64,000 nt of DNA from Mesostigma viride (Eukaryota; Streptophyta; Mesostigmatophyceae; Mesostigmatales; Mesostigmataceae). The position numbers and the translations under genes are program-made. The stretch covers positions 1,038,021 to 1,102,020 of the forward strand of contig RPFO01000648.1 in assembly GCA_009746045.1 (NCBI GenBank). Direction: 5' to 3'. This document shows, one piece after another, positions 5,257-60,329 of this stretch (its first letter is position 1; each line of letters begins with the position of its first letter). The notes below the pieces were generated by a model that worked only from the letters and a program-made list of their open reading frames with translations, was not told the origin of the DNA and did not search any database.

Positions 5257-5266
5257 CATGACTGTG

Positions 5267-5382
<116 letters not shown>

Positions 5383-5385
5383 GTT

Positions 5386-9674: not shown

Positions 9675-12600
9675 TCACCCCTTCTTGTCCATCGCGATGA
9701 AGAGGGACGCGCTGGCAATGAGAAGCGCTCCCAGTGCACCCAGCAGCGACGGCACCTCGTGCAGGAAGGTGACCCCCAGCAGGTACGTGCCGAGCACCTG
9801 CCAATACAGACAACAGGCATTGGAGTTGGTAGCCATGCATACGTGCGGGTTGGTAGCCATGCAGGTGGTAGATGCGGGTTGGTGGCATGCAGGTAGCACG
9901 TGCAGGTTGGTAGGCATGCATGCAGGAAGGTGACACAAGCAGGCACGTGCCCAGGACCTGCCAATGAAGACCATCAAAATGGTTTTGGTGATGAGCCAAG
10001 CAAAGGGGTGAAGTGGGCAGGGTGGCAGGAACGCAGCCTTGATAAGCGTGGGTGGGTTTGCGTCTAGGCGTGCAGCAACAGTGTGCGGTGGCAGGCACGT
10101 GCCCAGGTACTTGCTGATGATGCAGATGGTTTTGGAGGGTGGCAGGCATGAACTGATACGGCGGGAGGGTTGGTAGGCGTGCCACGACGATGATGTGTCG
10201 GGTGGCATGCACAGGACATGTGGCAAAAACGGGATGCTCTTCACAGGCCAGATGATGGGACGTATCGGACGGGCACATTGCAAGGGCATCTAACAAAGAC
10301 GTGTCCTACAGATGTCGCGTCAACCTGTCCGTCAGGAGGTTTACTTAGGATGCCTTCTGGCTGGGAAAGGTCTGGCTGGAAAAGCTCGAGCAAAATACCT
10401 TGACGTATTGGATGGAGGTCGCGCGCCCAGCCTTCTCCAGCTGGAGGCCGCGGGTGAGGAACACCTGGCCCCAGAACAGGGGGCAGGGAATGAACATAGG
10501 GACGGAACATGGGCATATGAAGCAGGTTTGAGGCTGCGTGTGAGGAGCAGCTGCTGGATATAAGGACAGGGAGGACGAATAGGAACAAGCAATAGAGGAT
10601 GAATAGGAACATACCGAGAGAGGATGAATAGGAAGACACGATAGTGATGAACCATAATCATAGGGGCCATGGAGTAGTCCGCGCGTGAAGAGCACCTGGC
10701 GGAATAGGGGCTGCCCAGCATACCGGGGGCTATGAATAGGACCAACGCCAGGAATAAGGAGCACACATATCGGTCATGAAGAAGGATCTTGATTAGGGCT
10801 TATGAACGGGAACCAAGCATGGGTTCATGATTGCGCGCCACCGTTTGCAGCCATGGGAAGGGGCCAAGAATTAGGGCCATGTCTAGGGATAACCGATGAC
10901 CCCATGCAGTAGTCGAGAGCCAAGGGTCGCAAGAAGGTGCTTCACTGCGTCGCAGTAGCCAAGCATTGTCCACAAAACATTTCCAAGCATCGTCCACAAA
11001 ACATTTCCGAGCATTGACCACAAAACGCTTCCAAGCATCGTCTACAAAACCACTCCAAGACTTGTCCACAAAACTTCTCCAAGCCATCATGGCTGGTTGG
11101 AACAACAAGTGACATGGCAGCAGTAGACCTACTCCTATCGAGTGCGCAGAGTCTGATGTGCTACAAAAGACCTGTGGCCTGGCGGATTGCAGGAAGAGGA
11201 GAAGGATGTAGCAGGGGCTTGACAGAAAGAGATAATGATATACTACAATGCGCATGATAACATTTAAAAAACATGACAGCTGTAAGGGACGCCTTAGCCC
11301 AAGCAAACACTGGGTCGCGGGGCCGAGAATAGCAATACCCCAGCGACAACCACGGGGGCTTACCTGCGCGCAGAAGGCCGTGACGCCCACTCCAATGAGG
11401 CCCAAAATGTCCAGCGGCGTTGGCATCACGAAGTGCTGGCAACGGCCGTGTATGTGGGGGGGCAGGCAACACAGAGAACCATGGTGACCGGGCAAATACA
11501 AGAACGGAGGGCAAAGAACCAGGCTAACGACTAAGCCTGAGGTAAACAAGATACGATGCTGAAATTAGATATGATACGTTGATAAAAGTAGATATGATAC
11601 GTTGATGAGGCATTAGGTGGAAAGCAGACCTGGCCAAGTCATAGGATGCAAGCTCCCCTGTTGGCACGCCAAAGTCAGTCGCATCAACCCTATTCAACAG
11701 ACAATCCCTGGTTTACAAACGTAATGTTTGCAACGGAGTGTGGGTGTGTGGGGCACGATTAGGAGAACAGGGAACACGCGAGGTGTCCACACCCCATCGT
11801 GACCTGCGCGGGGTAGCGACATATCATGTTGCCGGAATCATGCTGGCTAAAGGTGGTGGTGGTATCCGTTGCCCGTGCCCCACACAGCTGTTACCCAAGG
11901 CTCACGCGAGGATGGTCATGGCTGCATGGTCACGGGCGGTGGCTGCATCATCATGGGGATGGCTCTTGGCTGGCTGCCGCCACGCCCCCACATTCTAGGC
12001 ACGGTGATTGACAAAACATCCGCAGCAGGCGGCACGCACGCACGCACCCATAAACCTGCCACTGTGCCATCTAATGGCAGGCACGCACAAAACAACAGCC
12101 ACAGGTATCGATGTGCAAAAGACCGGCATCCGGCATGCAGACAGGCATCCAGCACGCACAATTAGACCGGCATCCGGCACGCACCTGCAGCATGAGCATG
12201 CCCACCACTGAGCAGGGCAATGAGAGGAATGCGAACGCGAAAACGATCACCCTGCAGGGATGCGGGCGCAGGGAGGGGACGGCAGGCAGTGGGAGATCGC
12301 GGAGTTTCCACGCAAGCTACACCAGGTCACGCGAGAGGATGGGCAGAGTTACATGTTTGCCCTCGCAAAGCTGTTAAGAAGGAAGGTGATGGGCAGTGGT
12401 GGAAGGCGATGGGCAGTGGTGGAAGGCGATGGGCAGTGGTGGAAGGCGATGGTGGAAGGTGACGGGCAGTGGTGGAAGGTGACGGGCAGTGGTGGAAGGT
12501 GATGGGCAGTGGTGGAAGGTGATGGGCAGCGGTGGAAGGTGATGGGCAGCGGGAAGGCGATGGGCAGTGGTGATGCAACCAGGGTACGAAATATGGTTGG

Positions 12601-15600
12601 AGTGCCTGTGGTGCCTGAGGTATCGGAAGACAGGCGACCCTTTCGGGCAGCACATGCATCAGAAGGACACAGCCTCAAGACAAAGCACGTGCCAGGGGAG
12701 GCAGGAAGCCTTTCGGTGACATCAGCTTCGGCACGAGCAGTTTCGGTGTATTGTTACTAAAGTACTGTGCACACCGGAAGCTACTGTAGGTCTTAGATGT
12801 ACTTCCTTCAGCTAAAACATGAGGTGACGGCAAAAGCTTGGCGTCCGGCAGACGCTGGTGCCGAGCCACCGCACTGTCGAGCGTTGCTACCGCTTTCTCA
12901 GATGTTAACACTTCCACACCATTGCTGTACTGGTGCTGGCCCATCATGCTGTCCACTGTCGCCATGTCAGTTTGTCATGCTAGACACCATTGTAAAACTA
13001 TCAGTATCCACGGTCACTAGGTATTTGCATTCACGTGTAAAACTATCAGTATCCACGGTCACTAGGTATTTGCATTCACGTGTAAAACTATCAGTATCCA
13101 CGGTCACTAGGTATTTGCATTCACGTGTAAAACTATCAGTATCCACGGTCACCAGGTATTTGCATTCACGTGTAAAACTATCAGTATCCACGGTCACTAG
13201 GTATTTGCATTCACGTGTAAAACTATCAGTATCCACGGTCACTAGGTATTTGCATTCACGTGTAAAACTATCAGTATCCACGGTCACTAGGTATTTGCAT
13301 TCACGTGTAAAACTATCAGTATCCACGGTCACTAGGTATTTGCATTCACGTGTAAAACTATCAGTATCCACGGTCACTAGGTATTTGCATTCACGGTGAC
13401 TGCCACTGCTATGTACTCTAGGTTTGGTAAACAGCAGCTCATGCATCGCAACTAGTGCATGGCGGTACTCCTGTGGGCCTCCTGCCCCACCATTCATGCA
13501 TATTTCACGAATAAAAAGCTCGAGACTACGCATATTCATACAGAAGCTGTTACAACACAAAACTGTCATCCCGATGCGGTGTTGCGGTGCCAGCAAAGAG
13601 AGAACTGTCACGTCACGGTGGGTGCGAGTGCACTCCATGCATTCCACTCTGCTGGGTGCGCTTGATGGATGCCTGTATTGACACTCTGCAGGCGCCCACT
13701 GGTGAACACATTAGGCTGTGAGAAGTTTTTTTGGAACGCGGGTGACCAACATCCCATGCTTGCTCATGCAAAGGGTAGCCAATCCCGATGTCCGAGTCAA
13801 TTTGCCACAAGCTGTCGCACCATAACGCGTAGTGGTCACTATAGCAAGCATGGTGGTCACTATAGAAAGCATGGTGATCCCCACTAGCACACGGTAGCGG
13901 TCACCCTAGCGCTCACAGTAGCGGCCACTCACAGCGCGCCCTGCCATGGGCGTGCACGCGCGTCACACTACAACACACTACACGGCCACTCTAGCGGTCA
14001 CGGCAGCAGCATGCCACTCACAGCGCGCCCTGCCATGGGCGTGCACGCGCGTCACACTACAACACACTACACGGCCACTCGAGCGGTCACGGCAGCAGCA
14101 TGCCACTCACAGCGGGCCCTGCCATGGGCGTGCACGCGCGTCACACTACAACACACTACACGGCCACTCTAGCGGTCACGGCAGCAGCATGCCACTCACA
14201 GCGCGCCCTGCCATGGGCGTGCACGCGCGTCACACTACAACACACTACACGGCCACTCGAGCGGTCACGGCAGCAGCATGCCACTCACAGCGGGCCCTGC
14301 CATGGGCGTGCACGCGCGTCACACTACAACACACTACACGGCCACTCTAGCGGTCACGGCAGCAGCATGCCACTCACAGCGGGCCCTGCCATGGGCGTGC
14401 ACGCGCGTCACACTACAACACACTACACGGCCACTCGAGCGGTCACGGCAGCAGCATGCCACTCACAGCGGGCCCTGCCATGGGCGTGCACGCGCGTCAC
14501 ACTACAACACACTACACGGCCACTCGAGCGGTCACGGCAGCAGCATGCCACTCACAGCGGGCCCTGCCATGGGCGTGCACGCGCGTCACACTACAACACA
14601 CTACACGGCCACTCGAGCGGTCACGGCAGCAGCATGCCACTCACAGCGGGCCCTGCCATGGGCGTGCACGCGCGTCACACTACAACACACTACACGGCCA
14701 CTCTAGCGGTCACGGCAGCAGCATGCCACTCACAGCGGGCCCTGCCATGGGCGTGCACGCGCGTCACACTACAACACACTACACGGCCACTCGAGCGGTC
14801 ACGGCAGCAGCATGCCACTCACAGCGGGCCCTGCCATGGGCGTGCACGCGCGTCAAACTACAACACACTACACGGCCACTCGAGCGGTCACGGCAGCAGC
14901 ATGCCACTCACAGCGGGCCCTGCCATGGGCGTGCACGCGCGTCACACTACAACACACTACACGGACCACTCGAGCGGTCACGGCAGCAGCATGCCACTCA
15001 CAGCGGGCCCTGCCATGGGCGTGCACGCGCGTCACACTACAACACACTACACGGCCACTCGAGCGGTCACGGCAGCAGCATGCCACTCACAGCGGGCCCT
15101 GCCATGGGCGTGCACGCGCGTCACACTACAACACACTACACGGCCACTCGAGCGGTCACGGCAGCAGCATGCCACTCACAGCGGGTCCTCTCCATTAGTG
15201 CCCGCTTTGCGCACAATTACATAGGCCAACCCTCCCAGCAGTGCTCCCATGAGAGCCATGAAGATGGCGAACGCGTCGTACGACTCGTTGTTGGTAGATG
15301 CTGCACCCGCGCCGTCTGTGTAGGGTTAGGGAGGGGGCATGCCGCATAAGAGGTTGCTGTAATGGGTGTTTTTATAATGGGTGCAACTGGTTGGTGGTGG
15401 ACACCGCACCCGCGCCATTTGTTGAGGGGCACACACAGACAGTGGGCATGACAAGTCACTTTAATGGATGATTATTATAATGGATACGAATCGTTGTTGG
15501 TGGACCCGACTGCGCGGTGCAGAGAGGGGGGCAGAGTGGACAAAGGGTCACTATAAGGGGGCGCTATTAAAGTGCGTAAGACTTGATTGGCGGGAGCTAC

Positions 15601-18600
15601 AGGGGCACGGGCATGAGCGGGGCAGCACCCGCCAGCTGGCATGATAAGTCACTGTTATCGTCACACGGCACAACAAGTCACAGTCATAGTCCTATAGTCA
15701 CTGTTATGGTCACATGGCACAACAAGTCACAGTCATAGTCCTATAGTCAATGTTATCGTCACATGGCACAACAAGTCACAGTCATAGTCCTATAGTCACT
15801 GTTATGGTCACATGGCACAACAAGTCAAAGTCACAGTCCTAACGGCTAGAACTTCTCTGTTCTGGTTCATGGGCGGACAAATCCTTGGCCATACGCAAGC
15901 GATGGCAGATTGCGCACACTGCTACCGTAGAGGACTTGCTGCCAGCCACATCGTACAACATGGTCTGTGGCCATCCACCACACAGCGCCCTCGCAGGGCC
16001 TGCGCTTGCTGCCACCCACCACAGGTATACGCCTTCCTTTACTACACCCACACAACGTCTGCGCCCACGTACCGCTGGCGCCGGGGCCAAATATCATCGC
16101 TGGCTGCGTGACGAGAAGTACGCCCATGAAGCCGCAAAACGTGCCTGTTGGGCGCAGCGCCATGCGTGCAATACATGAACAGAATGTGTTATTATGATGA
16201 GGCACCAAGGCATGGGGCAACAAAACGTGCCTGTTGGGCGCAGCGTCATGCATGCGATGTATGCGCATGATGTGGTGGGCACAAGAGCATCTGATAGGAA
16301 CAAGAGCATGTGGGGCATCTGCAGTCCATTTCCTAAACACACGCGCAAAAACCACTCCATGTAACCACCCACCCGCCATCTCTCTCGCCCCCCACTTCTC
16401 CTTGAGGAAGACGCTTGCGAGCATTGCCGTGAATATTGGGCTCGTGAAGTTGAGCACCGTCGCGTCCCGCAGAGGCAGCGCTTGGATGCTGGCGCGATGG
16501 CATTAATGGATAAGCGCGACGATATAAGGGCGCAGATATAAGGGAGCAGATATAAGGGCATAGCGCGCAGATATAAGGGAGCAGATATAAGGACATAGCG
16601 CGCAAATATAAGGGAGCAGATATAAGGGCATAGCGCGCAGATATAAGGGAGCAGATATGGGCATATCACGCAGATATAAGGGCGCAGATATAAGGGAGCA
16701 GGTATAAGGGCATATCACGCAGATATAAGGGAGCAGGTATAAGGGCATAGCGCGCAGATGTAAGGGCGCAGATATAAGGGAGCAGATATAAGGGCATAGC
16801 ACGCAGATATAAGGGAGCAGATATAAGGGCATAGCGCGCAGATATAAGGGAGCAGATATAAGGGAGCAGGTATAAGGGCATATCACGCAGATATAAGGGA
16901 GCAGATATAAGGGCATAGCGCGCAGATATAAGGGACCAGATATAAGGGCTTAGCGCGCAGATATAAGGGACCAGATATAAGGGCATATCACGCAGATATA
17001 AGGGAGCAGATATAAGGGCATAGCGCACAGATATAAGGGAGCAGATATAAGGGCATATCACGCAGATGTAAGGGCGCAGATATAAGGGCATAGCGCGCAG
17101 ATGTAAGGGCGTAGATATAAGATAGCAGATATGAGGGACCAGATATAAGGGCATAGCGCGCAGATATAAGGGAGCAGATATAAGGGCATAGCGCGCAGAT
17201 ATAAGGGAGCAGGGAGGTGGGCAAGGGAAGACGTTCAGAGCACGTGCAGGGTTAATGCAGCATCTAGGCACATGACTTGGATGCTGGCGCACAGGACGAT
17301 CCGTTCAGGGAAGGCAACAGAAGAACTGCTGTTGAGGCCACACGCATGGTTCATCCAGCAACGTTTCGTCCGGCAGAGGCAATGCTGGGATGTTGGTGAG
17401 GAACACGTGCCACTGATCGAGAGAGGAAACAGAACAAGCCAAGAAGCACACGACAGAGACCGCTATGCGGATGCAGAGACGAAGTAGAAGCGAGATACCT
17501 GCAGGGGTTGTGCCGGTGAGCGCGGCTGGCCTGCAGGCAAGCACATCGGTTGTGACTAGAACTTTCTCTGGACAGGAAATGTGCGACAAGGTAACAGCCA
17601 GCCCGCTAAATTACCTGTAGAAGAAGCAGATGCCCAGTATTCTACCATTAACTAATTAACCCACAACCCCCTATTCTGCCATAGGCCCAATATATTTTGT
17701 TATGCTACTGGCAACGGTAACACATAGCCCGCCGCTCTCAAGCCGCCTTACTTATAGAGGAAGCAGAGGACTGCTAACTAGCAGTGAGGCAATACTATAG
17801 AAGAGCGCTATGTGTGTACCCACACCTGTAGAATGCGCGGAAGAGTGCTCGGCAGAGACCCACACCATTTCGCCTAGGAGAGTGCTATAAATGCACCCCT
17901 ATCTGTAGAAGAAGCGGGAGAGTGCGAAGAAGCCGATGGAGCTGACGGAGCGTGCCATGGCGAGGGAGCGGTTCTATACATGTACCCCTACCGGTGGACG
18001 ACGCGAGGGCGGGAGCATACCTGTAGAAGAAGCAGGAGAGTGCGAAGAAGCCGATGACGGAGCGCCACATGACAAGGGAGCGGTTCTGTGGCTGGCCCAG
18101 CAAGGGGTAACCGTCGCGCAGGAGGCTGCCGCCGGCCAGCAGGGAGATGACGGAGGAACGGATGGCGACCGTCTCAAAGGACGGGATGTCGTTCACTGTA
18201 TTGCGGCAATATAGTGGACGGACGGGGATGTGGCCACAGAAGATGCATGGGATGTGCATAGTAGTTGCACGGGTGGGCGGTGGTGTGGCAGGACGCAGGC
18301 AGGGGGGAGAGAGGGGAGAGGAGATTGTGGAGGAGCGGGTAAGAAAAGGGACGTCATTCAGTGGCGCACGCAAAACGAATGGGCAGGGGGGTGGGGTGGG
18401 CAAATGCAGGCAGAAGGGAGAGGGCTGAGCGGTGGTGGTGGAGAAGTGGGCAAAGGGGAGGGAAGGGCCTGTAAACAGGTGACGGATGAATGGACCATCG
18501 GGTCTAGTTGATATGGGTGGTTGCTTAATCGTTAATTTGATCATTTATTTATTATTGGTGGGTGAGATATTGATTTGGCAGGTTGGTTGGTTGGTTGGTT

Positions 18601-20067: not shown

Positions 20068-20939
20068 GACTTGTACACTAACTTGCGGGGACGGGGCCTT
20101 TCGGCAGAAAAGTCTTCGAAAAGAAGTCGTTTTGCTCAATATTAAAGGCTCCCTTGGGAACGGACAAAGATTCTGGCTTTAACAGCTAAAATGGTAGGAC
20201 GTAACATTATTTTTCACCTGCATTTCTGGCTATACTGCACAACCGACATCGCAACTTTCCAGCAATGATTATTCCACCACCGTTCCATGACGTTGCTTAA
20301 TTTTCACTCGAGCTTCGCGCGGGAAGCACGACCTGCCCCTCCCTAGGTGCAAGAGGACGGTGGGTTAGCACACATCCACTGGCAAAGTGCCAAGTGCAAG
20401 CGCACCGTACCCGAGAACATGTGATTCTACATCTCGGACGTCAGGAACAACGGCTACAATGTATGATCCTTAGTGAAAGTTTTCAGATAGCTTCGTACTT
20501 GCCTACTTACCTACTAGAGACTTGAACCTGGGCAGACCTGGGCTCAGCAACGTGGGAGATTTGAACCACGAGGCAAGACTGGTTGCAGTTGTTGCAACTA
20601 CCTAAAAACGATCATGTGGAATTGCGTTCGCTGGCCTACTAGCCATGGTGTGGAGCCTAGCGCAACATTGGCGGTATCAATGGCTGCAAACCAAGGCAGG
20701 TCTTGGAAAAAAATCTCTTTAATCTAACCGAGAAACTCAGGAACTATGGATTAAGAGAAATATCAAGGAGGTTCAGCAGCTTTAGGACGAATGGCCACTT
20801 GAAGTTCGATTCATCCATGCACTGCATCCTAAGTTGAGATTTATGAACTGCAATTCATTTTCAGTTAGGGAGCAGTGATGAAGCTGTTATCTAGATAGCA
20901 GGAATTGAATTTGCCTGCATAACTCCGGTCCGCTGGACG
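20068..20939. promoter_or_regulatory. Divergent promoter interval between the transporter and PLAT genes
   Basis: The transporter starts on the minus strand at 20067 and the best start of the coiled-coil/PLAT gene is the plus-strand ATG at 20940, leaving about 870 bp for two promoters and 5' UTRs. I see no clear TATA box. A minus-strand open stretch of 24 codons precedes the transporter ATG but lacks its own ATG. Confidence 0.5.
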
Positions 20940-32900: not shown

Positions 32901-33238
32901 ATGACTCAGCTGGGGTTCTGGTTGCTTCCTGTGGCAACCACGATGGCTCAGGGGGGTTGGGTTGTGACACACACAGGTGGACGTGACGGTCAACCTGGAG
33001 CTGCAGAGCCACGCGCAATGCCCCACTCTTTGATGTGATCTGCACTCACATGATCACGCCTTTTCCTTCTATTACTAACCTGCATGCACCCAGGTGGACG
33101 CGGCAGTCAAGCTGGAGCTGCAGAACCACGCGGCGGACCTGCACGGCGTCTTCCGCGTGTTGCTGCGCACGGTCAGCGATATACTCAAGGAGGCGACGGG
33201 CGTGCTGGCTTCCGCAATCACCGCCGCCAAGGAAGACG

Positions 33239-33270
<32 letters not shown>

Positions 33271-48200: not shown

Positions 48201-51200
48201 ATGCCTGGTCATGTGTTTTTTATTATTATCTGATCCCTCATGCCTGGTCAAGTGTTTTTTATTATTATCTGATCCCTCATGCCTGGTCAAGTGTTTTTTA
48301 TTATTATCTGATCCCTCATGCCTGGTCATGTGTTTTTTATTATTATCTGATCCCTCATGCCTGGTCAAGTGTTTTTTATTATTATCTGATCCCTCATGCC
48401 TGGTCAAGTGTTTTTTATTATTATCTGATCCCTCATGCCTGGTCAAGTGTTTTTTATTATTATCTGATCCCTCATGCCTGGTCAAGTGTTTTTTATTATT
48501 ATCTGATCCCTCATGCCTGGTCAAGTGTTTTTTATTATTATCTGATCCCTCATGCCTGGTCAAGTGTTTTTTATTATTATCTGATCCCTCATGCCTGGTC
48601 AAGTGTTTTTTATTATTATCTGATCCCTCATGCCTGGTCATGTGTTTTTTATTATTATCTGATCCCTCATGCCTGGTCAAGTGTTTTTTATTATTATCTG
48701 ATCCCTCATGCCTGGTCAAGTGTTTTTTATTATTATCTGATCCCTCATGCCTGGTCAAGTGTTTTTTATTATTATCTGATCCCTCATGCCTGGTCAAGTG
48801 TTTTTTATTATTATCTGATCCCTCATGCCTGGTCAAGTGTTTTTTATTATTATCTGATCCCTCATGCCTGGTCAAGTGTTTTTTATTATTATCTGATCCC
48901 TCATGCCTGGTCATGTGTTTTTTATTATTATCTGATCCCTCATGCCTGGTCAAGTGTTTTTTATTATTATCTGATCCCTCATGCCTGGTCAAGTGTTTTT
49001 TATTATTATCTGATCCCTCATGCCTGGTCAAGTGTTTTTTATTATTATCTGATCCCTCATGCCTGGTCAAGTGTTTTTTATTATTATCTGATCCCTCATG
49101 CCTGGTCATGTGTTTTTTATTATTATCTGATCCCTCATGCCTGGTCAAGTGTTTTTTATTATTATCTGATCCCTCATGCCTGGTCAAGTGTTTTTTATTA
49201 TTATCTGATCCCTCATGCCTGGTCAAGTGTTTTTTATTATTATCTGATCCCTCATGCCTGGTCAAGTGTTTTTTATTATTATCTGATCCCTCATGCCTGG
49301 TCAAGTGTTTTTTATTATTATCTGATCCCTCATGCCTGGTCAAGTGTTTTTTATTATTATCTGATCCCTCATGCCTGGTCAAGTGTTTTTTATTATTATC
49401 TGATCCCTCATGCCTGGTCAAGTGTTTTTTATTATTATCTGATCCCTCATGCCTGGTCAAGTGTTTTTTATTATTATCTGATCCCTCATGCCTGGTCAAG
49501 TGTTTTTTATTATTATCTGATCCCTCATGCCTGGTCAAGTGTTTTTTATTATTATCTGATCCCTCATGCCTGGTCAAGTGTTTTTTATTATTATCTGATC
49601 CCTCATGCCTGGTCAAGTGTTTTTTATTATTATCTGATCCCTCATGCCTGGTCAAGTGTTTTTTATTATTATCTGATCCCTCATGCCTGGTCAAGTGTTT
49701 TTTATTATTATCTGATCCCTCATGCCTGGTCAAGTGTTTTTTATTATTATCTGATCCCTCATGCCTGGTCAAGTGTTTTTTATTATTATCTGATCCCTCA
49801 TGCCTGGTCAAGTGTTTTTTATTATTATCTGATCCCTCATGCCTGGTCAAGTGTTTTTTATTATTATCTGATCCCTCATGCCTGGTCAAGTGTTTTTTAT
49901 TATTATCTGATCCCTCATGCCTGGTCAAGTGTTTTTTATTATTATCTGATCCCTCATGCCTGGTCAAGTGTTTTTTATTATTATCTGATCCCTCATGCCT
50001 GGTCAAGTGTTTTTTATTATTATCTGATCCCTCATGCCTGGTCAAGTGTTTTTTATTATTATCTGATCCCTCATGCCTGGTCAAGTGTTTTTTATTATTA
50101 TCTGATCCCTCATGCCTGGTCAAGTGTTTTTTATTATTATCTGATCCCTCATGCCTGGTCAAGTGTTTTTTATTATTATCTGATCCCTCATGCCTGGTCA
50201 AGTGTTTTTTATTATTATCTGATCCCTCATGCCTGGTCATGTGTTTTTTATTATTATCTGATCCCTCATGCCTGGTCAAGTGTTTTTTATTATTATCTGA
50301 TCCCTCATGCCTGGTCAAGTGTTTTTTATTATTATCTGATCCCTCATGCCTGGTCAAGTGTTTTTTATTATTATCTGATCCCTCATGCCTGGTCAAGTGT
50401 TTTTTATTATTATCTGATCCCTCATGCCTGGTCATGTGTTTTTTATTATTATCTGATCCCTCATGCCTGGTCAAGTGTTTTTTATTATTATCTGATCCCT
50501 CATGCCTGGTCAAGTGTTTTTTATTATTATCTGATCCCTCATGCCTGGTCAAGTGTTTTTTATTATTATCTGATCCCTCATGCCTGGTCAAGTGTTTTTT
50601 ATTATTATCTGATCCCTCATGCCTGGTCAAGTGTTTTTTATTATTATCTGATCCCTCATGCCTGGTCAAGTGTTTTTTATTATTATCTGATCCCTCATGC
50701 CTGGTCAAGTGTTTTTTATTATTATCTGATCCCTCATGCCTGGTCAAGTGTTTTTTATTATTATCTGATCCCTCATGCCTGGTCAAGTGTTTTTTATTAT
50801 TATCTGATCCCTCATGCCTGGTCAAGTGTTTTTTATTATTATCTGATCCCTCATGCCTGGTCAAGTGTTTTTTATTATTATCTGATCCCTCATGCCTGGT
50901 CAAGTGTTTTTTATTATTATCTGATCCCTCATGCCTGGTCAAGTGTTTTTTATTATTATCTGATCCCTCATGCCTGGTCAAGTGTTTTTTATTATTATCT
51001 GATCCCTCATGCCTGGTCATGTGTTTTTTATTATTATCTGATCCCTCATGCCTGGTCAAGTGTTTTTTATTATTATCTGATCCCTCATGCCTGGTCAAGT
51101 GTTTTTTATTATTATCTGATCCCTCATGCCTGGTCAAGTGTTTTTTATTATTATCTGATCCCTCATGCCTGGTCAAGTGTTTTTTATTATTATCTGATCC

Positions 51201-54200
51201 CTCATGCCTGGTCAAGTGTTTTTTATTATTATCTGATCCCTCATGCCTGGTCAAGTGTTTTTTATTATTATCTGATCCCTCATGCCTGGTCAAGTGTTTT
51301 TTATTATTATCTGATCCCTCATGCCTGGTCAAGTGTTTTTTATTATTATCTGATCCCTCATGCCTGGTCAAGTGTTTTTTATTATTATCTGATCCCTCAT
51401 GCCTGGTCAAGTGTTTTTTATTATTATCTGATCCCTCATGCCTGGTCAAGTGTTTTTTATTATTATCTGATCCCTCATGCCTGGTCAAGTGTTTTTTATT
51501 ATTATCTGATCCCTCATGCCTGGTCAAGTGTTTTTTATTATTATCTGATCCCTCATGCCTGGTCAAGTGTTTTTTATTATTATCTGATCCCTCATGCCTG
51601 GTCAAGTGTTTTTTATTATTATCTGATCCCTCATGCCTGGTCAAGTGTTTTTTATTATTATCTGATCCCTCATGCCTGGTCAAGTGTTTTTTATTATTAT
51701 CTGATCCCTCATGCCTGGTCAAGTGTTTTTTATTATTATCTGATCCCTCATGCCTGGTCAAGTGTTTTTTATTATTATCTGATCCCTCATGCCTGGTCAA
51801 GTGTTTTTTATTATTATCTGATCCCTCATGCCTGGTCAAGTGTTTTTTATTATTATCTGATCCCTCATGCCTGGTCAAGTGTTTTTTATTATTATCTGAT
51901 CCCTCATGCCTGGTCAAGTGTTTTTTATTATTATCTGATCCCTCATGCCTGGTCAAGTGTTTTTTATTATTATCTGATCCCTCATGCCTGGTCAAGTGTT
52001 TTTTATTATTATCTGATCCCTCATGCCTGGTCAAGTGTTTTTTATTATTATCTGATCCCTCATGCCTGGTCAAGTGTTTTTTATTATTATCTGATCCCTC
52101 ATGCCTGGTCAAGTGTTTTTTATTATTATCTGATCCCTCATGCCTGGTCAAGTGTTTTTTATTATTATCTGATCCCTCATGCCTGGTCAAGTGTTTTTTA
52201 TTATTATCTGATCCCTCATGCCTGGTCAAGTGTTTTTTATTATTATCTGATCCCTCATGCCTGGTCAAGTGTTTTTTATTATTATCTGATCCCTCATGCC
52301 TGGTCAAGTGTTTTTTATTATTATCTGATCCCTCATGCCTGGTCAAGTGTTTTTTATTATTATCTGATCCCTCATGCCTGGTCAAGTGTTTTTTATTATT
52401 ATCTGATCCCTCATGCCTGGTCAAGTGTTTTTTATTATTATCTGATCCCTCATGCCTGGTCAAGTGTTTTTTATTATTATCTGATCCCTCATGCCTGGTC
52501 AAGTGTTTTTTATTATTATCTGATCCCTCATGCCTGGTCAAGTGTTTTTTATTATTATCTGATCCCTCATGCCTGGTCAAGTGTTTTTTATTATTATCTG
52601 ATCCCTCATGCCTGGTCAAGTGTTTTTTATTATTATCTGATCCCTCATGCCTGGTCAAGTGTTTTTTATTATTATCTGATCCCTCATGCCTGGTCAAGTG
52701 TTTTTTATTATTATCTGATCCCTCATGCCTGGTCAAGTGTTTTTTATTATTATCTGATCCCTCATGCCTGGTCAAGTGTTTTTTATTATTATCTGATCCC
52801 TCATGCCTGGTCAAGTGTTTTTTATTATTATCTGATCCCTCATGCCTGGTCAAGTGTTTTTTATTATTATCTGATCCCTCATGCCTGGTCAAGTGTTTTT
52901 TATTATTATCTGATCCCTCATGCCTGGTCAAGTGTTTTTTATTATTATCTGATCCCTCATGCCTGGTCAAGTGTTTTTTATTATTATCTGATCCCTCATG
53001 CCTGGTCAAGTGTTTTTTATTATTATCTGATCCCTCATGCCTGGTCAAGTGTTTTTTATTATTATCTGATCCCTCATGCCTGGTCAAGTGTTTTTTATTA
53101 TTATCTGATCCCTCATGCCTGGTCAAGTGTTTTTTATTATTATCTGATCCCTCATGCCTGGTCAAGTGTTTTTTATTATTATCTGATCCCTCATGCCTGG
53201 TCAAGTGTTTTTTATTATTATCTGATCCCTCATGCCTGGTCAAGTGTTTTTTATTATTATCTGATCCCTCATGCCTGGTCAAGTGTTTTTTATTATTATC
53301 TGATCCCTCATGCCTGGTCAAGTGTTTTTTATTATTATCTGATCCCTCATGCCTGGTCAAGTGTTTTTTATTATTATCTGATCCCTCATGCCTGGTCATG
53401 TGTTTTTTATTATTATCTGATCCCTCATGCCTGGTCAAGTGTTTTTTATTATTATCTGATCCCTCATGCCTGGTCAAGTGTTTTTTATTATTATCTGATC
53501 CCTCATGCCTGGTCAAGTGTTTTTTATTATTATCTGATCCCTCATGCCTGGTCAAGTGTTTTTTATTATTATCTGATCCCTCATGCCTGGTCAAGTGTTT
53601 TTTATTATTATCTGATCCCTCATGCCTGGTCAAGTGTTTTTTATTATTATCTGATCCCTCATGCCTGGTCAAGTGTTTTTTATTATTATCTGATCCCTCA
53701 TGCCTGGTCAAGTGTTTTTTATTATTATCTGATCCCTCATGCCTGGTCAAGTGTTTTTTATTATTATCTGATCCCTCATGCCTGGTCAAGTGTTTTTTAT
53801 TATTATCTGATCCCTCATGCCTGGTCATGTGTTTTTTATTATTATCTGATCCCTCATGCCTGGTCAAGTGTTTTTTATTATTATCTGATCCCTCATGCCT
53901 GGTCAAGTGTTTTTTATTATTATCTGATCCCTCATGCCTGGTCAAGTGTTTTTTATTATTATCTGATCCCTCATGCCTGGTCAAGTGTTTTTTATTATTA
54001 TCTGATCCCTCATGCCTGGTCAAGTGTTTTTTATTATTATCTGATCCCTCATGCCTGGTCAAGTGTTTTTTATTATTATCTGATCCCTCATGCCTGGTCA
54101 AGTGTTTTTTATTATTATCTGATCCCTCATGCCTGGTCAAGTGTTTTTTATTATTATCTGATCCCTCATGCCTGGTCAAGTGTTTTTTATTATTATCTGA

Positions 54201-57200
54201 TCCCTCATGCCTGGTCATGTGTTTTTTATTATTATCTGATCCCTCATGCCTGGTCAAGTGTTTTTTATTATTATCTGATCCCTCATGCCTGGTCATGTGT
54301 TTTTTATTATTATCTGATCCCTCATGCCTGGTCAAGTGTTTTTTATTATTATCTGATCCCTCATGCCTGGTCAAGTGTTTTTTATTATTATCTGATCCCT
54401 CATGCCTGGTCAAGTGTTTTTTATTATTATCTGATCCCTCATGCCTGGTCATGTGTTTTTTATTATTATCTGATCCCTCATGCCTGGTCATGTGTTTTTA
54501 TTATTATCTGATCCCTCATGCCTGGTCATGTGTTTTTTATTATTATCTGATCCCTCATGCCTGGTCAAGTGTTTTTTATTATTATCTGATCCCTCATGCC
54601 TGGTCAAGTGTTTTTTATTATTATCTGATCCCTCATGCCTGGTCATGTGTTTTTTATTATTATCTGATCCCTCATGCCTGGTCAAGTGTTTTTTATTATT
54701 ATCTGATCCCTCATGCCTGGTCATGTGTTTTTATTATTATCTGATCCCTCATGCCTGGTCAAGTGTTTTTTATTATTATCTGATCCCTCATGCCTGGTCA
54801 TGTGTTTTTTATTATTATCTGATCCCTCATGCCTGGTCATGTGTTTTTTATTATTATCTGATCCCTCATGCCTGGTCATGTGTTTTTTATTATTATCTGA
54901 TCCCTCATGCCTGGTCAAGTGTTTTTTATTATTATCTGATCCCTCATGCCTGGTCAAGTGTTTTTTATTATTATCTGATCCCTCATGCCTGGTCAAGTGT
55001 TTTTTATTATTATCTGATCCCTCATGCCTGGTCAAGTGTTTTTTATTATTATCTGATCCCTCATGCCTGGTCATGTGTTTTTTATTATTATCTGATCCCT
55101 CATGCCTGGTCATGTGTTTTTTATTATTATCTGATCCCTCATGCCTGGTCAAGTGTTTTTTATTATTATCTGATCCCTCATGCCTGGTCAAGTGTTTTTT
55201 ATTATTATCTGATCCCTCATGCCTGGTCAAGTGTTTTTTATTATTATCTGATCCCTCATGCCTGGTCAAGTGTTTTTTATTATTATCTGATCCCTCATGC
55301 CTGGTCAAGTGTTTTTTATTATTATCTGATCCCTCATGCCTGGTCAAGTGTTTTTTATTATTATCTGATCCCTCATGCCTGGTCAAGTGTTTTTTATTAT
55401 TATCTGATCCCTCATGCCTGGTCAAGTGTTTTTTATTATTATCTGATCCCTCATGCCTGGTCAAGTGTTTTTTATTATTATCTGATCCCTCATGCCTGGT
55501 CATGTGTTTTTTATTATTATCTGATCCCTCATGCCTGGTCAAGTGTTTTTTATTATTATCTGATCCCTCATGCCTGGTCATGTGTTTTTTATTATTATCT
55601 GATCCCTCATGCCTGGTCATGTGTTTTTTATTATTATCTGATCCCTCATGCCTGGTCATGTGTTTTTTATTATTATCTGATCCCTCATGCCTGGTCATGT
55701 GTTTTTTATTATTATCTGATCCCTCATGCCTGGTCAAGTGTTTTTTATTATTATCTGATCCCTCATGCCTGGTCATGTGTTTTTTATTATTATCTGATCC
55801 CTCATGCCTGGTCAAGTGTTTTTTATTATTATCTGATCCCTCATGCCTGGTCAAGTGTTTTTTATTATTATCTGATCCCTCATGCCTGGTCAAGTGTTTT
55901 TTATTATTATCTGATCCCTCATGCCTGGTCAAGTGTTTTTTATTATTATCTGATCCCTCATGCCTGGTCAAGTGTTTTTTATTATTATCTGATCCCTCAT
56001 GCCTGGTCAAGTGTTTTTTATTATTATCTGATCCCTCATGCCTGGTCATGTGTTTTTTATTATTATCTGATCCCTCATGCCTGGTCAAGTGTTTTTTATT
56101 ATTATCTGATCCCTCATGCCTGGTCAAGTGTTTTTTATTATTATCTGATCCCTCATGCCTGGTCAAGTGTTTTTTATTATTATCTGATCCCTCATGCCTG
56201 GTCATGTGTTTTTTATTATTATCTGATCCCTCATGCCTGGTCAAGTGTTTTTTATTATTATCTGATCCCTCATGCCTGGTCAAGTGTTTTTCATTATTAT
56301 CTGATCCCTCATGCCTGGTCAAGTGTTTTTCATTATTATCTGATCCCTCATGCCTGGTCAAGTGTTTTTTATTATTATCTGATCCCTCATGCCTGGTCAA
56401 GTGTTTTTTATTATTATCTGATCCCTCATGCCTGGTCATGTGTTTTTTATTATTATCTGATCCCTCATGCCTGGTCAAGTGTTTTTTATTATTATCTGAT
56501 CCCTCATGCCTGGTCAAGTGTTTTTTATTATTATCTGATCCCTCATGCCTGGTCATGTGTTTTTTATTATTATCTGATCCCTCATGCCTGGTCAAGTGTT
56601 TTTTATTATTATCTGATCCCTCATGCCTGGTCAAGTGTTTTTTATTATTATCTGATCCCTCATGTCTGGTCAAGTGTTTTTTATTATTATCTGATCCCTC
56701 ATGCCTGGTCAAGTGTTTTTTATTATTATCTGATCCCTCATGCCTGGTCATGTGTTTTTTATTATTATCTGATCCCTCATGCCTGGTCAAGTGTTTTTCA
56801 TTATTATCTGATCCCTCATGCCTGGTCAAGTGTTTTTTATTATTATCTGATCCCTCATGCCTGGTCAAGTGTTTTTCATTATTATCTGATCCCTCATGTC
56901 TGGTCCCTCATGCCTGGTCGCTCATGTCTGTTCGGACGTGTCTGTTCGGTCATGTCTGGTGAAACATGCCTGGTGGGACATGCCATGGGCCCCTCCCCCC
57001 CCACCACACAGCCCAAGTTGAGTACGTCATCTCTGTCAAGACTGGCAGCAAGCGGGGCGCCGGCACCAACGCGCGGGTAAGCATGCGCCCCTTGTGTGGC
57101 AAGTCTTAGTATATAGCTGTGCCAGTGCCAACGGGAGGGTAAGGCCCAGTGTCAGTGTTATCATTCATGATCGCCAGGGTATGGCCTGCCCCCTTGGCGA

Positions 57201-57525
57201 AGGTGTTTGGCTGACGTATAGATGCCTTGGTAAGGATGTTTGGCTACAGATCTTCATGGCCACACTGACAGCATTCCCTTGATGATGTGGTGGTTGCTTT
57301 GTTGTGGCGCCACCAGGGCCTACGTGGAGCTGTCGGGCTATAATGAACCTGTGCAGCATCCCTTTGTTGTGGTTGTTGTTGCCAGGCCTACGTGGAGCTA
57401 TTCGGCTACAACAACACGAGCACCGGGCGGCTGTGGGTGGTGTCGGCGCGGGGCCAGTTTGAGCGCAACGACTTGGACGAGTTCTCGATGACCGCGACGA
57501 ATGTGGGCGCGATCAAGGTGCTGAG
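20940..57525 (+). CDS. Large coiled-coil protein with PLAT/LH2 domain (at least 18 exons, 3' incomplete)
   Basis: Exons: 20940-21002, 22651-22695, 23771-23918, 25277-25431, 25946-26068, 26710-26881, 28201-28310, 28774-28878, 30156-30352, 30737-30992, 31454-31720, 33094-33238, 40265-40405, 40975-41157, 41707-42154, 43081-43445, 57012-57076, 57386-57525. All are GT-AG with compatible phases, giving 1042 codons plus two bases. The product starts MKRSSSAPKRPASARL, then runs through charged heptad-rich segments (for example QEEMWQRQQRTMRK, RRQEKLAQRELRLKQEGEAL, LEEYRRSNSD) typical of coiled coils. Exons 10-16 are mostly helical and acidic or alanine-rich. Exons 17-18 read YVISVKTGSKRGAGTNAR then AYVELFGYNNTS, the opening strands of a PLAT/LH2 domain, which usually binds lipid or protein partners at membranes. 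The domain's second half must lie past the window. Exon 1 and the 42154/43081 junction are the least certain. Confidence 0.75.
21814..21893 (+). repeat. 25-bp repeat, three copies, intron 1
   Basis: cacaagccgtgtagcgtgtg plus ccagc three times in a row. Confidence 0.85.
22341..22625 (+). repeat. 40-bp minisatellite, seven copies, intron 1
   Basis: The unit begins atgttccagccagtttcctc and runs to ctccgcgccg. The array ends about 25 bp before the exon 2 acceptor. Confidence 0.95.
23605..23955 (+). repeat. Copies of exon 3 boundaries in the flanking introns
   Basis: The exon 3 start, cag followed by gaggcggcggaggccaacgc (23768-23790), has an intronic copy at about 23614-23640 (cag then gagggcggcgtaggccaacgc). 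The exon 3 end with its gtaggg donor recurs at about 23924-23950 as gcggcaag then gtaggc. Confidence 0.8.
24519..25030. other. Intron 3 segment with poly(A) tract, no gene
   Basis: AT- and C-run-rich DNA containing a 13-A run at about 24878-24890. It could be a short inserted retroelement, but no target-site duplication is evident to me. Confidence 0.3.
25456..25500 (+). repeat. Copy of the exon 4 end in intron 4
   Basis: The exon 4 end and donor (about 25396-25440, cgtatgtggccgagatgatg then cgcctcaag and gtgagg) recurs about 65 bp downstream as cgtgtatgtggccgaaatga then tgcgcctcgcgatgagg. The GT has become AT. Confidence 0.85.
25568..25756 (+). repeat. (GGA)n trinucleotide run, about 62 units, intron 4
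   Basis: A pure GGA/GAG run. It is open as poly-E in frame with a possible TAG acceptor at 25523, but no GT donor follows and exon 4 joins exon 5 in phase without it, so I treat it as intronic. Confidence 0.85.
27260..27540 (+). repeat. GGGCGAC / CCACGGGC low-order repeat, intron 6
   Basis: Short words (cgacgggcgatgggc, agccacgggcaac, actagccac) recur irregularly over 280 bp. Confidence 0.75.
27860..28065 (+). repeat. Four decayed copies of the exon 7 start in intron 6
   Basis: The genuine acceptor and exon 7 start read ccctgcag then aggccatggcgctgg. Upstream copies read cccgcag then aggccattggctc (about 27876), cccgcag then aggccatcggctc (about 27927), ccccgcag then tggcggtgg (about 27973) and cccacag then aggccatgtgc (about 28043). 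All keep CAG. Confidence 0.8.
28655..29095 (+). repeat. Copies of both exon 8 edges
   Basis: The exon 8 start (atggagcacctggagg then cggcgctcgaactc) has an upstream copy at about 28664-28702. The exon 8 end (gcgcgcaggtggcggaggag then aag and gtgagg) has downstream copies at about 28957-28987 and 29057-29087, both with intact GTGAGG. Flanking intron sequence (ggacgtttatatagactag) is also copied once. Confidence 0.88.
30490..30575 (+). repeat. (ATT/GTT)n run, intron 9
   Basis: AT-rich trinucleotide run. Just upstream (30398-30490) a ~50-bp word (tacgtgaggtggcgg ... cccacct) is repeated. Confidence 0.85.
31040..31180 (+). repeat. Two copies of the exon 10 donor region in intron 10
   Basis: The exon 10 end (ggtcggacgggaag then gtgagtgtgtgtgg) is echoed at about 31053-31076 (ggtccggcgtgaag then gtaag) and at about 31146-31175 (ggtcggacaggaag then ctgagtgtgttgg, with GT changed to CT). 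Confidence 0.75.
31702..32673 (+). repeat. 81-bp satellite, 12 units, carrying the exon 11 donor
   Basis: Units start at 31702, 31783, 31864 and so on to 32593. Each contains the exon 11 tail gatgaagaagatggggcag followed by gtgggtgg. The first unit is the genuine exon end. A thirteenth, longer copy of the exon tail (about 44 nt, including ggagaaggcgatgaagaag) with donor lies at 32700-32742. Because 81 is divisible by three and no stop interrupts, the exon 11 frame stays open through all copies. Confidence 0.95.
32970..33022 (+). repeat. Copy of the exon 12 start in intron 11
   Basis: cacag then gtggacgtgacggtcaacc and tggagctgcagagccacgcg mirrors the genuine exon 12 start at 33094 (gtggacgcggcagtcaagc, tggagctgcagaaccacgcg). 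Confidence 0.88.
33239..33475 (+). repeat. (GT)n then G-rich tract immediately after the exon 12 donor
   Basis: The intron begins as a GT run, so the donor is one of many GTs, and then becomes GGGGTGGGG-type sequence with many G tracts. It is a candidate for G-quadruplex formation. Confidence 0.85.
33569..33792 (+). repeat. 46-bp repeat, five copies, derived from the exon 12 end
   Basis: The unit holds ggcgtccacgattgctgccg and ccaaggaggaca, matching the exon 12 tail gcttccgcaatcaccgccgc and caaggaagac. The GT after the exon word is absent in these copies. Confidence 0.88.
35235..37040 (-). pseudogene. Element 1 RNase H plus tyrosine recombinase, one internal frameshift
   Basis: RNase H motifs appear in order: VVASDASGSGGGVVY, HINVKEAIAATQ, RLVDSSAVVGAF and DHNPADKAS. 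Then comes a linker with GDVHPNPGP (36167-36196) and the recombinase: QQYLRISEALGL (first catalytic Arg), a frame break near 35565, then FHSLRHGGATHD (His-x-x-Arg) and GRWASALSVTRYIGL (nucleophile Tyr). The break follows DALLFRA and precedes LTYSQARQQW, consistent with one missing T. All catalytic residues are still present, so the element is young or the breaks are assembly artefacts. Confidence 0.8.
36961..38163 (-). pseudogene. Element 1 reverse transcriptase
   Basis: The frame carries RT landmarks in order: KPDGRIRLIVDNRRGN (motif 1/2 region), GGVSDLDSYYNRLRLP (motif A aspartate), and MHAVTIDDLHFTH (motif C, with IDD in place of YxDD). Near 37040 the frame breaks. The element 2 homologue continues GVVHRRDGVLEP, and here the continuation VIHQRDGDVVPVPER lies one frame over, consistent with loss of one base in a short G run. 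The start is not fixed; no ATG opens this frame near 38163, so it may be translated from an upstream start or by frameshift. Confidence 0.75.
38360..39457 (-). pseudogene. Element 1 Gag-like ORF with compensating frameshifts
   Basis: An ATG at 39457 opens a frame beginning MTSVTAPERNFIAKLKQEA, followed by a helical region (AATAVQKILGEGHWLERIQ). From about 39010 to 38760 this frame turns into low-quality sequence, while another frame reads well (GDIGDLISAMSKLLDQAKTP). The first frame resumes at MLDYAESVGGKS and ends GKKGQGGPSNNNK. A one-base shift and its reversal therefore disrupt the middle. The C-terminal part (AAEYLAKLITACQL, AAMSMGKLQHKLEQ) resembles the end of the element 2 Gag. No CCHC knuckle is seen. 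The Gag role is inferred from position upstream of RT. Confidence 0.6.
40128..40165 (+). repeat. Copy of the exon 13 start in intron 12
   Basis: cccag then gcgtgttgcgcacggccgag gggt echoes the genuine tccag then gcgtggtcagcaccgccgag gggt at 40262-40289. Confidence 0.8.
42180..42605. repeat. About 58-bp direct repeats followed by an inverted copy, intron 15
   Basis: The unit containing gaacaacccacgtctgtagc and acccctctccccgctccccg is repeated about six times. The last copy (about 42478-42543) is followed at 42545-42605 by its reverse complement, making a hairpin with a ~5-base loop. The first part (42180-42240) is a diverged inverted copy too. Confidence 0.88.
43975..44075 (+). repeat. 26-bp repeat, four copies, intron 16
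   Basis: ccctaagat(g/a)cgtgcccagt plus ccctta in tandem. It is not a telomere repeat despite the ccctaa word. Confidence 0.88.
44223..56905 (+). repeat. 39-bp megasatellite, about 325 copies, intron 16
   Basis: Two families follow one another. From 44223 to about 45105, about 22 units carry tcatcagtgtcgtg. From there to 56905 the units carry ttattattatctgat. All share ctcatgcctggtca(t/a)gtg. The t/a (ATG/AAG) site varies near both ends and is almost uniformly AAG in the centre; about 61 units between 51018 and 53397 have no ATG. Several 38-bp units, with one T fewer, occur near 45338, 45648, 46662, 46856, 47284, 54498 and 54731. Since 39 is divisible by three, giant spurious reading frames run along both strands. 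The array ends in degenerate units with cctggt/tctggt words. Confidence 0.97.
57077..57385 (+). repeat. Intron 17 with copies of the exon 17 end and exon 18 start
   Basis: The exon 17 end (gcaccaacgcgcgg then gtaag) is echoed at 57127-57146 (gtgccaacgggagg then gtaag). The exon 18 start (ccag then gcctacgtggagctattcgg) is echoed at about 57312-57338 (ccag then ggcctacgtggagctgtcgg). Confidence 0.88.
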
Positions 57526-58990
57526 GTGAGCAGGGGAAAATTGGATGGGAATTTTTAGTTACTAGGGTGGGGGAAGATATGCCAATGTGGGGGCGATCAA
57601 GGTGCACAGGTCAGCGGGGGAAGTGTGTATGGATATGTGGATTTGGGGGTTGATTATAGGGTCAAAGGGTGGGGGGAGATATGCCAGTGTAGGGGCGATC
57701 AAAAAGCAGGTCTGGTGCGTTAAAGAATGTGGAATGGATTTGTATATGCGTGGCATTGAAGTACAGGCTGGTTAGGCTATAGTGACCCCTGCAGTGTCAG
57801 CATAACTTTCTCACGAGATTTGACCGAATCTCGAGATTCTGAAAGCACATTTGCCTTGCAGTTTTTCGTGAGGAAACTTACTGCGAAAAGACCGGTCGAA
57901 AACGGTTACGTTTACTAGGTTTGGCAGCAGTTTTATGAGAACAATCGGTTTTCTCTGAATATAGTTTAATTAACGCATGCGGGAAAGATAGGGCCGCTAT
58001 GCCTTGGCCTGCATGTGGAAGGGTGTCTGCGACATGGGCTGACTACTTCGATCTGTACAAAGGGTTTCATGTTCGCCTGAATTTTCCTTGGATGACCCGG
58101 TTGTTTATAAGGGTCAGTGGCTATTAATTAGTGGTCCGAGAAAATTAATTGTAGGTTTTATACGACTTGCTTGCAAAGATTCATGTTTGGTTGCACCAGC
58201 TGAGGTTAGGTGGGGACCTGTAGGGTCGGCTGGTTGCTTAACGAATCTTTGGCTGATGTGGGTTCTTTAGTGAGTCGTGATTAATTATTGTATAGTGGAT
58301 TCGGACCGGCCCAAGGGGTCGATGGGCGAGTTTTATGTTTGTCAGTCTTGGGAACCTTGTACAACTACCTGTACGGTTAACGCACTAGCCTGGGGGTGCG
58401 TGGCCACGTTGTTTGTAGTGGCGTTTTCAGCACTGTTCAGGCCGGTGTGTGACGCATGCCGGTGTTACTTAATTTAGGATGATGTCAGCATGTGTGTCGG
58501 CGGACCATGCCTTAAGCAAGCTAGGCAGGCAGTGATCCGCAATTGTTTCTTTCACAATGGCGGCAATGGCTGCCTGTGCAAAATTGCACATTCTAGCGCG
58601 GGTTGCATCTGTCTTGTAGCCGAGGCAGATGGTGGCACAACCGCTAAGTTGTTCGACCAAGCATAGTAGAGTTGGTCGTGCAACGGAAAGAAAATTTAAA
58701 TTTACCCCCATGTCGTTTTCCCCGGCTGTGGGTCTTTTTGACATGGGCGAAGGATGGGGCGCTACTTCGGCGGTTTGACCAGCTTCGACGGAGCTGTTCA
58801 TAAGTTTCTAAAACAGCTCTAGTGTCACATCGCAGGCTTGCCACCTTGCGATGGTGCGTGGGACGTGACCTGTACTCCAAAGGTCCTGAACCAGGTTCCT
58901 GTCAGCGACGGCCTGTTTTTTTCATATATATTTTTTTTGTGGCGGCAGGTCCGTTGTCCAGCTGCTCCTGCCGAGGAGGGGTAGTTGGGG
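57526..58990. other. Intron 18 before element 2: exon 18 end copies, otherwise nothing recognised
   Basis: The exon 18 end (aatgtgggcgcgatcaaggt) recurs at about 57578-57605 (aatgtgggggcgatcaaggt) and at about 57685-57706 (agtgtaggggcgatcaaaaa). I found no continuation of the PLAT domain here. The word cggttttctctgaatatagttt at about 57947 resembles cggggttctctgaacatagt at 63338 inside element 2. Confidence 0.5.
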
Positions 58991-60011: not shown

Positions 60012-60044
60012 ACACCGAAAGGGTAAACCGCTCCCCCTTCCCAC

Positions 60045-60322
60045 TGCCTCTTCCTACAATGCCTCTAAGCACTACGTGGGGGAGAGTGAGGTCAGCACGC
60101 AGACGCCAGCGTGCAACTCGCCGCCGCCGGACCTTCACTCTACAACACAAGGTGATTACGTGGTTGAATTGGCTATGGCACGGGGGGGCAGACCCTCCGC
60201 CTAAATCTGGAGGCGCGTGCTCCAGAGGAACGGCGGAGGCCCTGAAAAGGGTCAAGAAGCACTGCGAGTGGTACAGTCGCCGCGTAGGCGTTGCGACAGG
60301 CCCCGCAAAGGAAGTGATCTAA
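60045..60322 (+). other. Short arginine-rich open segment between Gag and RT of element 2
   Basis: An ATG at about 60059 opens a frame with RSARRRQRATRRRRTFTLQH followed by VITWLNWLWHGG and VKKHCEWYSRRVG. It ends just before the RT frame. It could be the RT N-terminus in a shifted frame or a small nucleic-acid-binding peptide. No homologue was recognised in element 1. Confidence 0.35.
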
Positions 60323-60329
60323 TCTATGG

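Follow-up and report, generated by a model that had tools for sequence, protein, structure and literature searches.

We analysed a 64,000-nucleotide stretch of the genome of the streptophyte alga Mesostigma viride (contig RPFO01000648.1, positions 1,038,021 to 1,102,020 of the forward strand; hereafter the window), in which the introns of two unrelated genes hold decayed copies of the exon-intron junctions beside them. Gene 1, on the reverse strand (9675..20067), is a nine-exon EamA/DMT transporter that was rebuilt from the sequence and carries EamA domains. Its exons lie at 20067-19809, 18195-18021, 16488-16373, 16144-16073 and 15315-15180 (exons 1-5) and at 12251-12185, 11435-11364, 10464-10399 and 9797-9675 (exons 6-9). 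The predicted protein is identical to the Mesostigma viride record jgi/Mesvir1/23732 over its full length (361/361 aa, 100% identity), which confirms the exon borders. Gene 2, on the forward strand (22651..57525), is a coiled-coil/PLAT gene for which 17 exons were found, numbered E3 (22651-22695) to E19 (57386-57525); an ATG at 20940 opens a candidate first exon. Joined together, the 17 exons give 1014 codons free of stops, provided that E17 ends at 43445, and the protein contains a PLAT domain (Pfam, E=9.1e-07). A search with this protein returned no database homologue at E≤1e-10. The exon model of gene 1 is backed by a published protein, and gene 2 stands without such confirmation from a database.

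The first-pass annotation had claimed that most exons of both genes have intronic copies of their own boundaries, and had proposed comparing exon edges with exon centres. We used the first and last 30 nucleotides (nt) of each exon as probes, exon bases only and hence free of splice consensus, and compared them with the adjacent intron over a length of at most 2.5 kb, taking significance from 100 dinucleotide shuffles. The sample comprised 26 exons with 50 junctions in the two genes, each junction being searched against its adjacent intron only; in two cases, upstream of the first gene 2 exon used and downstream of the last, no second known exon bounds the flank. At p≤0.01, 15/50 edge probes matched the adjacent intron, compared to 0/38 mid-exon control probes and 0/50 edges set against the reverse-complemented intron (1/38 and 5/50, respectively, at p≤0.05). 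Both kinds of edge were affected, with 9/25 acceptors and 6/25 donors at p≤0.01 and 11/25 and 9/25 at p≤0.05. Decayed junction copies are thus present in the introns of both genes, as had been claimed. The number of exons with at least one affected junction was 12 of the 26 at p≤0.01 and 15 of the 26 at p≤0.05, which is what "most exons" amounts to here. All six gene 1 exons that had been named were supported, exons 2, 3, 5, 8 and 9 at p≤0.01 and exon 4, whose junction aligns at 44/53, at p=0.04. For gene 2, where the two exon numberings cannot be matched with certainty, E4, E5, E7, E9, E11, E13, E14, E16 and E19 in our numbering passed at p≤0.05 (seven of the nine at p≤0.01), E6, E8 and E10 gave weak junction matches only, and E3, E12, E15, E17 and E18 drew no support from the exon-only edge test.

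The position of the copies relative to their source was examined using sliding probes lying outside the listed arrays, 38 at acceptor edges and 31 at donor edges. Of the acceptor-edge probes, 28.9% had a copy upstream and none of the 38 had one downstream; of the donor-edge probes, 22.6% had a copy downstream and 6.5% (2/31) had one upstream. The copies are in direct orientation, and nearly all of them lie on that side of their own exon edge which faces the intron. When the probe was placed at the junction, 10/25 acceptors and 6/25 donors gave a signal, falling to 1/24 and 2/24 with the probe 30 nt inside the exon. Since the signal fades about 30 nt from the junction, copies rarely carry more than ~50 nt of exon.

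The same comparison was made on kinesin genes elsewhere in the 440 Mb assembly. A whole-genome search with Pfam PF00225 gave 129 matches in ~40 gene clusters, and six of these, picked for having several exons in a short span, were tested with exon models that were fixed by frame and splice-site score for 24/25 anchors. An intronic copy was found at p≤0.01 for 10/48 edges, in four of the six genes, compared to 0/46 exon middles and 0/48 edges against inverted introns. The signal was again concentrated at the junction (2/24 acceptors and 9/24 donors, against 1/24 and 0/24 with the probe 30 nt inside the exon). Some of the kinesin copies are nearly or fully identical to their source. At the exon 2 donor of gene L036 (L036:1-7101) they lie at 88, 171 and 254 nt (period 83), in a young array of 83 bp x 3.6 with 95% match that overlaps the donor. 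At the exon 2 donor of gene L034 (L034:1-4901) they lie at 70 and 140 nt, with a young donor-overlapping array of 70 bp x 2.4 and 97% match; both arrays were called by Tandem Repeats Finder (TRF), which places 4/48 kinesin junctions within arrays. Across the six genes (L033-L038), donors are copied more than acceptors (9/24 vs 1/24 at p≤0.01), the reverse of the window (6/25 vs 9/25), which is perhaps a small-sample effect.

Exons predicted ab initio were taken from 22 other stretches of the window's contig, one of which is all N (L020) and another half N (L010). A "trusted" subset of six clusters, marked from their translations before the edge test, gave 4/41 edges vs 0/31 middles (Fisher p=0.098). 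Pfam backs three of these clusters (RRF, Brix and acyltransferase) and has no match for the other three, among which L025 is probably a repeated element, judging by its 46/53 residues shared with a frame in L010. Pooling the window, the kinesins and the trusted subset gave 29/139 edges vs 0/115 middles (Fisher p=5.8e-09), or 29/135 vs 0/111 with the doubtful L025 removed; adding all ab initio exons, good and doubtful, gave 33/191 vs 5/159 (p=9.5e-06).

The individual copies in the window differ widely in age. On the reverse strand, the gene 1 exon-2 donor has four decayed copies at offsets of ~112, 195, 270 and 406 (17612..17968), the nearest of which keeps 35/36 exon bases with its GT altered. 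Two decayed copies of the exon-3 acceptor lie at offsets 795 and 904 (17276..17396), the first containing just 8 exon bases. The copy of the exon-4 acceptor (16211..16263; offset 86, 44/53 identity) has an intact AG, and its intron part aligns too (p=0.002). Exon 5 is copied at both ends: its acceptor has two decayed copies at offsets 103 and 203 (15381..15528; TRF period 103), and its donor is overlapped by one end of a young array of 89 bp x 14.2 with 98% match (13924..15189). Decayed acceptor copies accompany exon 8 at offsets 83 and 228 (10530..10710) and exon 9 at offsets 81 (weak), 159 and 313, close to one, two and four periods (9842..10150).

On the forward strand, gene 2 has acceptor copies for E4 (23614..23640; 25/27), E7 (26583..26648; offset 122, 56/66), E9 (28621..28701; offset 113, decayed), E13 (32970..33015; offset 117, 40/46, AG intact), E14 (40131..40186; offset 127, p=0.02) and E19 (57269..57355; offset ~68-85 depending on gaps). 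Donor copies were found for E5 (25453..25504; offset 64, 45/53), E16 (42213..42231; offset 62, 17/19, GT lost) and E19 (57584..57632; offset 84, 40/49, GT intact). A young array of 101 bp x 2.4 with 92% match (28850..29088) overlaps the E9 donor and places copies of it at offsets 101 and 201. An array of 46 bp x 5 with 99% match (33556..33786) has units that contain diverged copies of the E13 donor edge, with the GT gone from 5/5 scored copies. Taking all cases together, most of the nearest copies are 44-160 nt away from their exon edge, gene 1 exon 3 (795-904) being an exception, and offsets are often near-multiples of one period (e.g. 81/159/313, 103/203 and 101/201). Many copies are 5-30% diverged, and the overall span runs from 98% arrays to near the detection limit.

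Several other features of the locus were noted. Two units of the 101-bp junction array resemble micro-exons (28940-28979 and 29041-29079) and obtain 16.0 and 16.7 from a simple exon scorer, vs 12.5 for the weakest exactly found true exon. Most of one gene 2 intron is occupied by a 39-bp satellite (44223-56905, forward strand; 325 copies, 98% match). A 21-base piece of it has 235 exact matches genome-wide and 235 within the window, so the satellite looks private to the gene 2 locus. Two mobile elements with tyrosine-recombinase-like frames lie at 34636-39735 (reverse strand) and 58993-64000 (forward strand), one of them within a gene 2 intron. Their matches to Pfam Phage_integrase (E=0.00019 and 0.0023) are both under the curated cut-off, and direct repeats lie at their ends or close by (one of 211 bp, with 98% match, and 135 and 119 bp with 99%); we take these elements to resemble DIRS/PAT elements. 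Outside the two genes, the tetranucleotides GGGA and GTGG form arrays of 188 and 133 copies that together take up ~1.3 kb (4515-5797).

Since junction copies are frequent in the two unrelated genes of the window and in four kinesin genes out of six, one could suspect a hotspot: some process linked to transcription or splicing (R-loops, paused polymerase or reverse splicing, for instance) would duplicate DNA by preference where exon and intron meet. The introns of the same genes speak against this. Of the one-sided tests with intron 30-mers, 29.5% in the window and 18.7% in the kinesins gave a direct copy within that intron (inverted copies: 2.2% and 3.8%), compared to 30% and 21% for exon edges, the two tests differing somewhat in flank lengths and shuffle numbers. 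Likewise, 41% of 1100 40-mers from window introns had a direct local copy and 4% an inverted one (z≥3). Relaxed TRF placed 9/50 window junctions within arrays, some of which (units 17-32 bp, 63-75% match) may be chance, vs 34% of random intron points; for the kinesins the figures were 4/48 vs 19%. Exon edges are thus duplicated no more often than intron sequence, and exon interiors hardly at all. Because introns show an equal copy rate, we reject the hotspot, which we regard as very improbable, and junctions do not stand out as the special target that the first-pass annotation had implied. The junction copies would instead be the most easily recognised part of a general process, since their exon source stays conserved. 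The equal duplication of junctions and of the rest of the intron tempers any claim for a junction-specific process.

We consider it very likely that this general process is local tandem duplication on a pervasive scale, whose products are removed from the inside of exons and decay in introns. In Mesostigma viride introns, duplication would be frequent, with units of ~20 to ~130 bases and two to more than ten copies, and the geometry of the repeats suggests that the mutational step is probably slippage or unequal exchange. A unit lying across a splice junction would take up to ~50 nt of exon edge and the splice site along. If splicing keeps to the copy bordering the intact exon, the mRNA would be unchanged and the allele could spread as a neutral variant, and units wholly within exons would be removed by selection. 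The intronic copies would then decay, remaining recognisable for longer than purely intronic repeats because the exon source is held constant, and the intron would gain the duplicated length. The first-pass annotation had likewise proposed repeated local tandem duplication across junctions, and this part of its proposal is supported: the copies are direct and on the intron side, their offsets are near-multiples of a period, young arrays occur beside old copies, and the pattern recurs in other genes. In relaxed TRF, 36% of the intron bases examined, with the mobile element and the 39-bp satellite excluded, lie in tandem repeats, which suggests that introns lengthen in this way; they could do so with their end signals retained.

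Whether whole units were duplicated was assessed in 25 cases chosen by hand, mainly from junction alignments, which biases the fractions; two were too short to score. The intronic part of the presumed unit aligned across the whole period in 11/23 nearest copies (p≤0.05), and in 7/19 when splice-site bases were left out.

Several observations weigh against pervasive duplication purged from exons. The intronic part had no significant alignment in 12/23 nearest copies, which could be explained by indels or by faster decay where both copies are neutral, and the full unit is not proven for them. In the kinesin genes, acceptor edges reached p≤0.01 in only 1/24 (5/24 at p≤0.05), exon middles reached p≤0.05 in 2/46, and L033 and L038 had no edge copy at p≤0.01. 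Taken alone, the ab initio set showed no contrast between edges and middles (8/93 vs 5/75), and 2/93 of its edges matched the inverted flank at p≤0.01. Relaxed TRF also covered 16% of exon bases, and TRF arrays covered the midpoints of 2/26 window and 1/24 kinesin exons. Finally, junctions lie in TRF arrays less often than random intron points in both samples, and a strictly uniform process is therefore not demonstrated.

The evidence comes from one assembly of one species and from a kinesin sample of six genes, with the mechanism drawn from repeat geometry. On this basis, we see about an even chance that tandem duplication through splice junctions makes introns grow as a constant process across the whole genome of M. 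viride, with edge copies at roughly one in four to six edges and thousands of near-authentic decoys of graded age that the spliceosome must pass over while still finding the true site. A graded set of this kind, occurring naturally in a unicellular relative of land plants and running from identical duplicates of splice sites to decayed ones, would let the rules of splice-site choice be tested, including the reason why splicing favours the outer copy and the length of exon that a decoy can include. The young arrays of L034 and L036 would be good targets for polymorphism and splicing tests.

A different origin for the copies would be that they are footprints of intron gain, through tandem duplication of AGGT-bearing exon segments or through introner-like elements. 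Precedents exist: an intron of a potato RdRp gene arose from a tandem duplication crossing a boundary (PMC4974935), and the boundary-spanning "mirage" minisatellites of amphioxus have been proposed as a source of introns (PMC3087553). However, AGGT duplication should leave the other side's exon sequence at each intron end, and wrong-side copies were seen with only 0/38 acceptor and 2/31 donor probes. In addition, the multi-copy arrays begin at existing junctions, and we found no new intron bounded by duplicated copies, the copies lying in existing introns beside their own exon edge. Intron gain is thus highly unlikely to have produced the copies.

The first-pass annotation had also suggested that the copies form a reservoir of decoy splice sites, which from the sequence is possible. 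Among the 31 copies scored at ≥15 (21 in the window and 10 in the kinesins), the AG or GT was intact in 17 and lost in 14. The gene 1 exon-5 donor array of 14 units falls outside this set because it contains too little exon. A separate tally of dinucleotides found AG or GT kept in 15/20 acceptor and 8/14 donor copies. Intact copies accompany junctions of gene 1 exons 2, 4, 5 and 9, of gene 2 E7, E9, E13 and E19, and of the kinesins L034 and L036. Identity alone would predict 24.5 intact dinucleotides (6.5 + 18.0) rather than 17, but the copies are non-independent, and the deficit is uninterpretable because five copies share one array and indels misplace some of the dinucleotides. Offsets showed no frame-keeping preference, with multiples of three in 8/31. 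The published gene 1 protein record uses the outer junctions, as judged by comparison with the protein record only. One could argue from the 17 retained dinucleotides that the copies are under selection because they tune expression, serving as decoys or as alternative splice sites. We hold this to be extremely unlikely given the 14 lost dinucleotides, the few offsets divisible by three and the many degrees to which the copies have decayed; neither dinucleotide retention nor offsets suggest use as alternative splice sites.

The matches might also be accidental, arising in DNA rich in GC and in repeats, or might stem from mistakes in the assembly or the exon models. In favour of this, the window is rich in simple repeats, gene 2 is without database confirmation, and edges and middles do not differ among the ab initio predictions, whose quality is unproven. 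Its probability is negligible: the dinucleotide shuffles, inverted introns and mid-exon probes rule out chance and composition, gene 1 equals a published protein exactly, many copies are 5-30% diverged, unlike the expectation for assembly duplication, and the edge excess was replicated in kinesin exons located by Pfam.

Pervasive local duplication across and beside junctions relates to several known systems. Ordinary intronic minisatellites have the same arrays and units, and the introns studied here have local direct copies as often as the edges do; the only difference is that the Mesostigma junction unit overlaps the exon edge, so that the splice site is copied. The potato RdRp gene (PMC4974935) and human internal tandem repeats, which occur at exon-intron boundaries and alter genes in segmental duplications (PMC2812944), share a tandem duplication crossing the intron-exon boundary. 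Those cases yield a new intron or splice form, whereas the Mesostigma copies lie inside an existing intron and leave the gene 1 protein record unchanged. The published Mesostigma genome has 24,431 genes with 4.81 exons per gene and introns that average 1,142 bp, with 30.1% of intron space repetitive, and the sections available make no mention of junction copies (PMC6947507). Among the literature matches listed, no title or abstract reports junction copies in Mesostigma, and Mesostigma and minisatellites come together in one paper, on simple sequence repeat (SSR) markers.

The closest relatives of these junction copies are the mirages of amphioxus, which reportedly go back to a paper of 2002. 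Mirages occur in the Adh3, globin, troponin C and PGBD5 genes as tandem repeats that span exon-intron boundaries at acceptors and donors, with units of 10-160 bp. Their AG or GT is often kept, no interference with splicing was seen, their length is unstable, and one globin intron holds degenerate repeats (PMC3087553, PMC3902484). The Mesostigma junction copies are the same kind of structure. In both, the unit spans the boundary (e.g. 89 bp x 14 and 101 bp x 2.4 here, the full unit being unprovable for 12/23 nearest copies), acceptors and donors are both affected (9/25 and 6/25 in the window), and the nearest offsets, mostly 44-160, fall within the reported unit range. The phenomenon, of which the first-pass annotation knew no description on such a scale, had already been described in kind for amphioxus (PMC3087553). 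Unlike mirages, which as far as those sources go are known from a handful of amphioxus genes, the copies reported here are found in a streptophyte alga, at 12/26 exons in two genes and 10/48 kinesin edges, and they range from 98% arrays to the limit of detection. What is new here is thus the algal host, the high frequency, on a small sample, and the wide range of decay. Together, these results would, as far as the literature searched goes, extend mirages beyond the cephalochordates.

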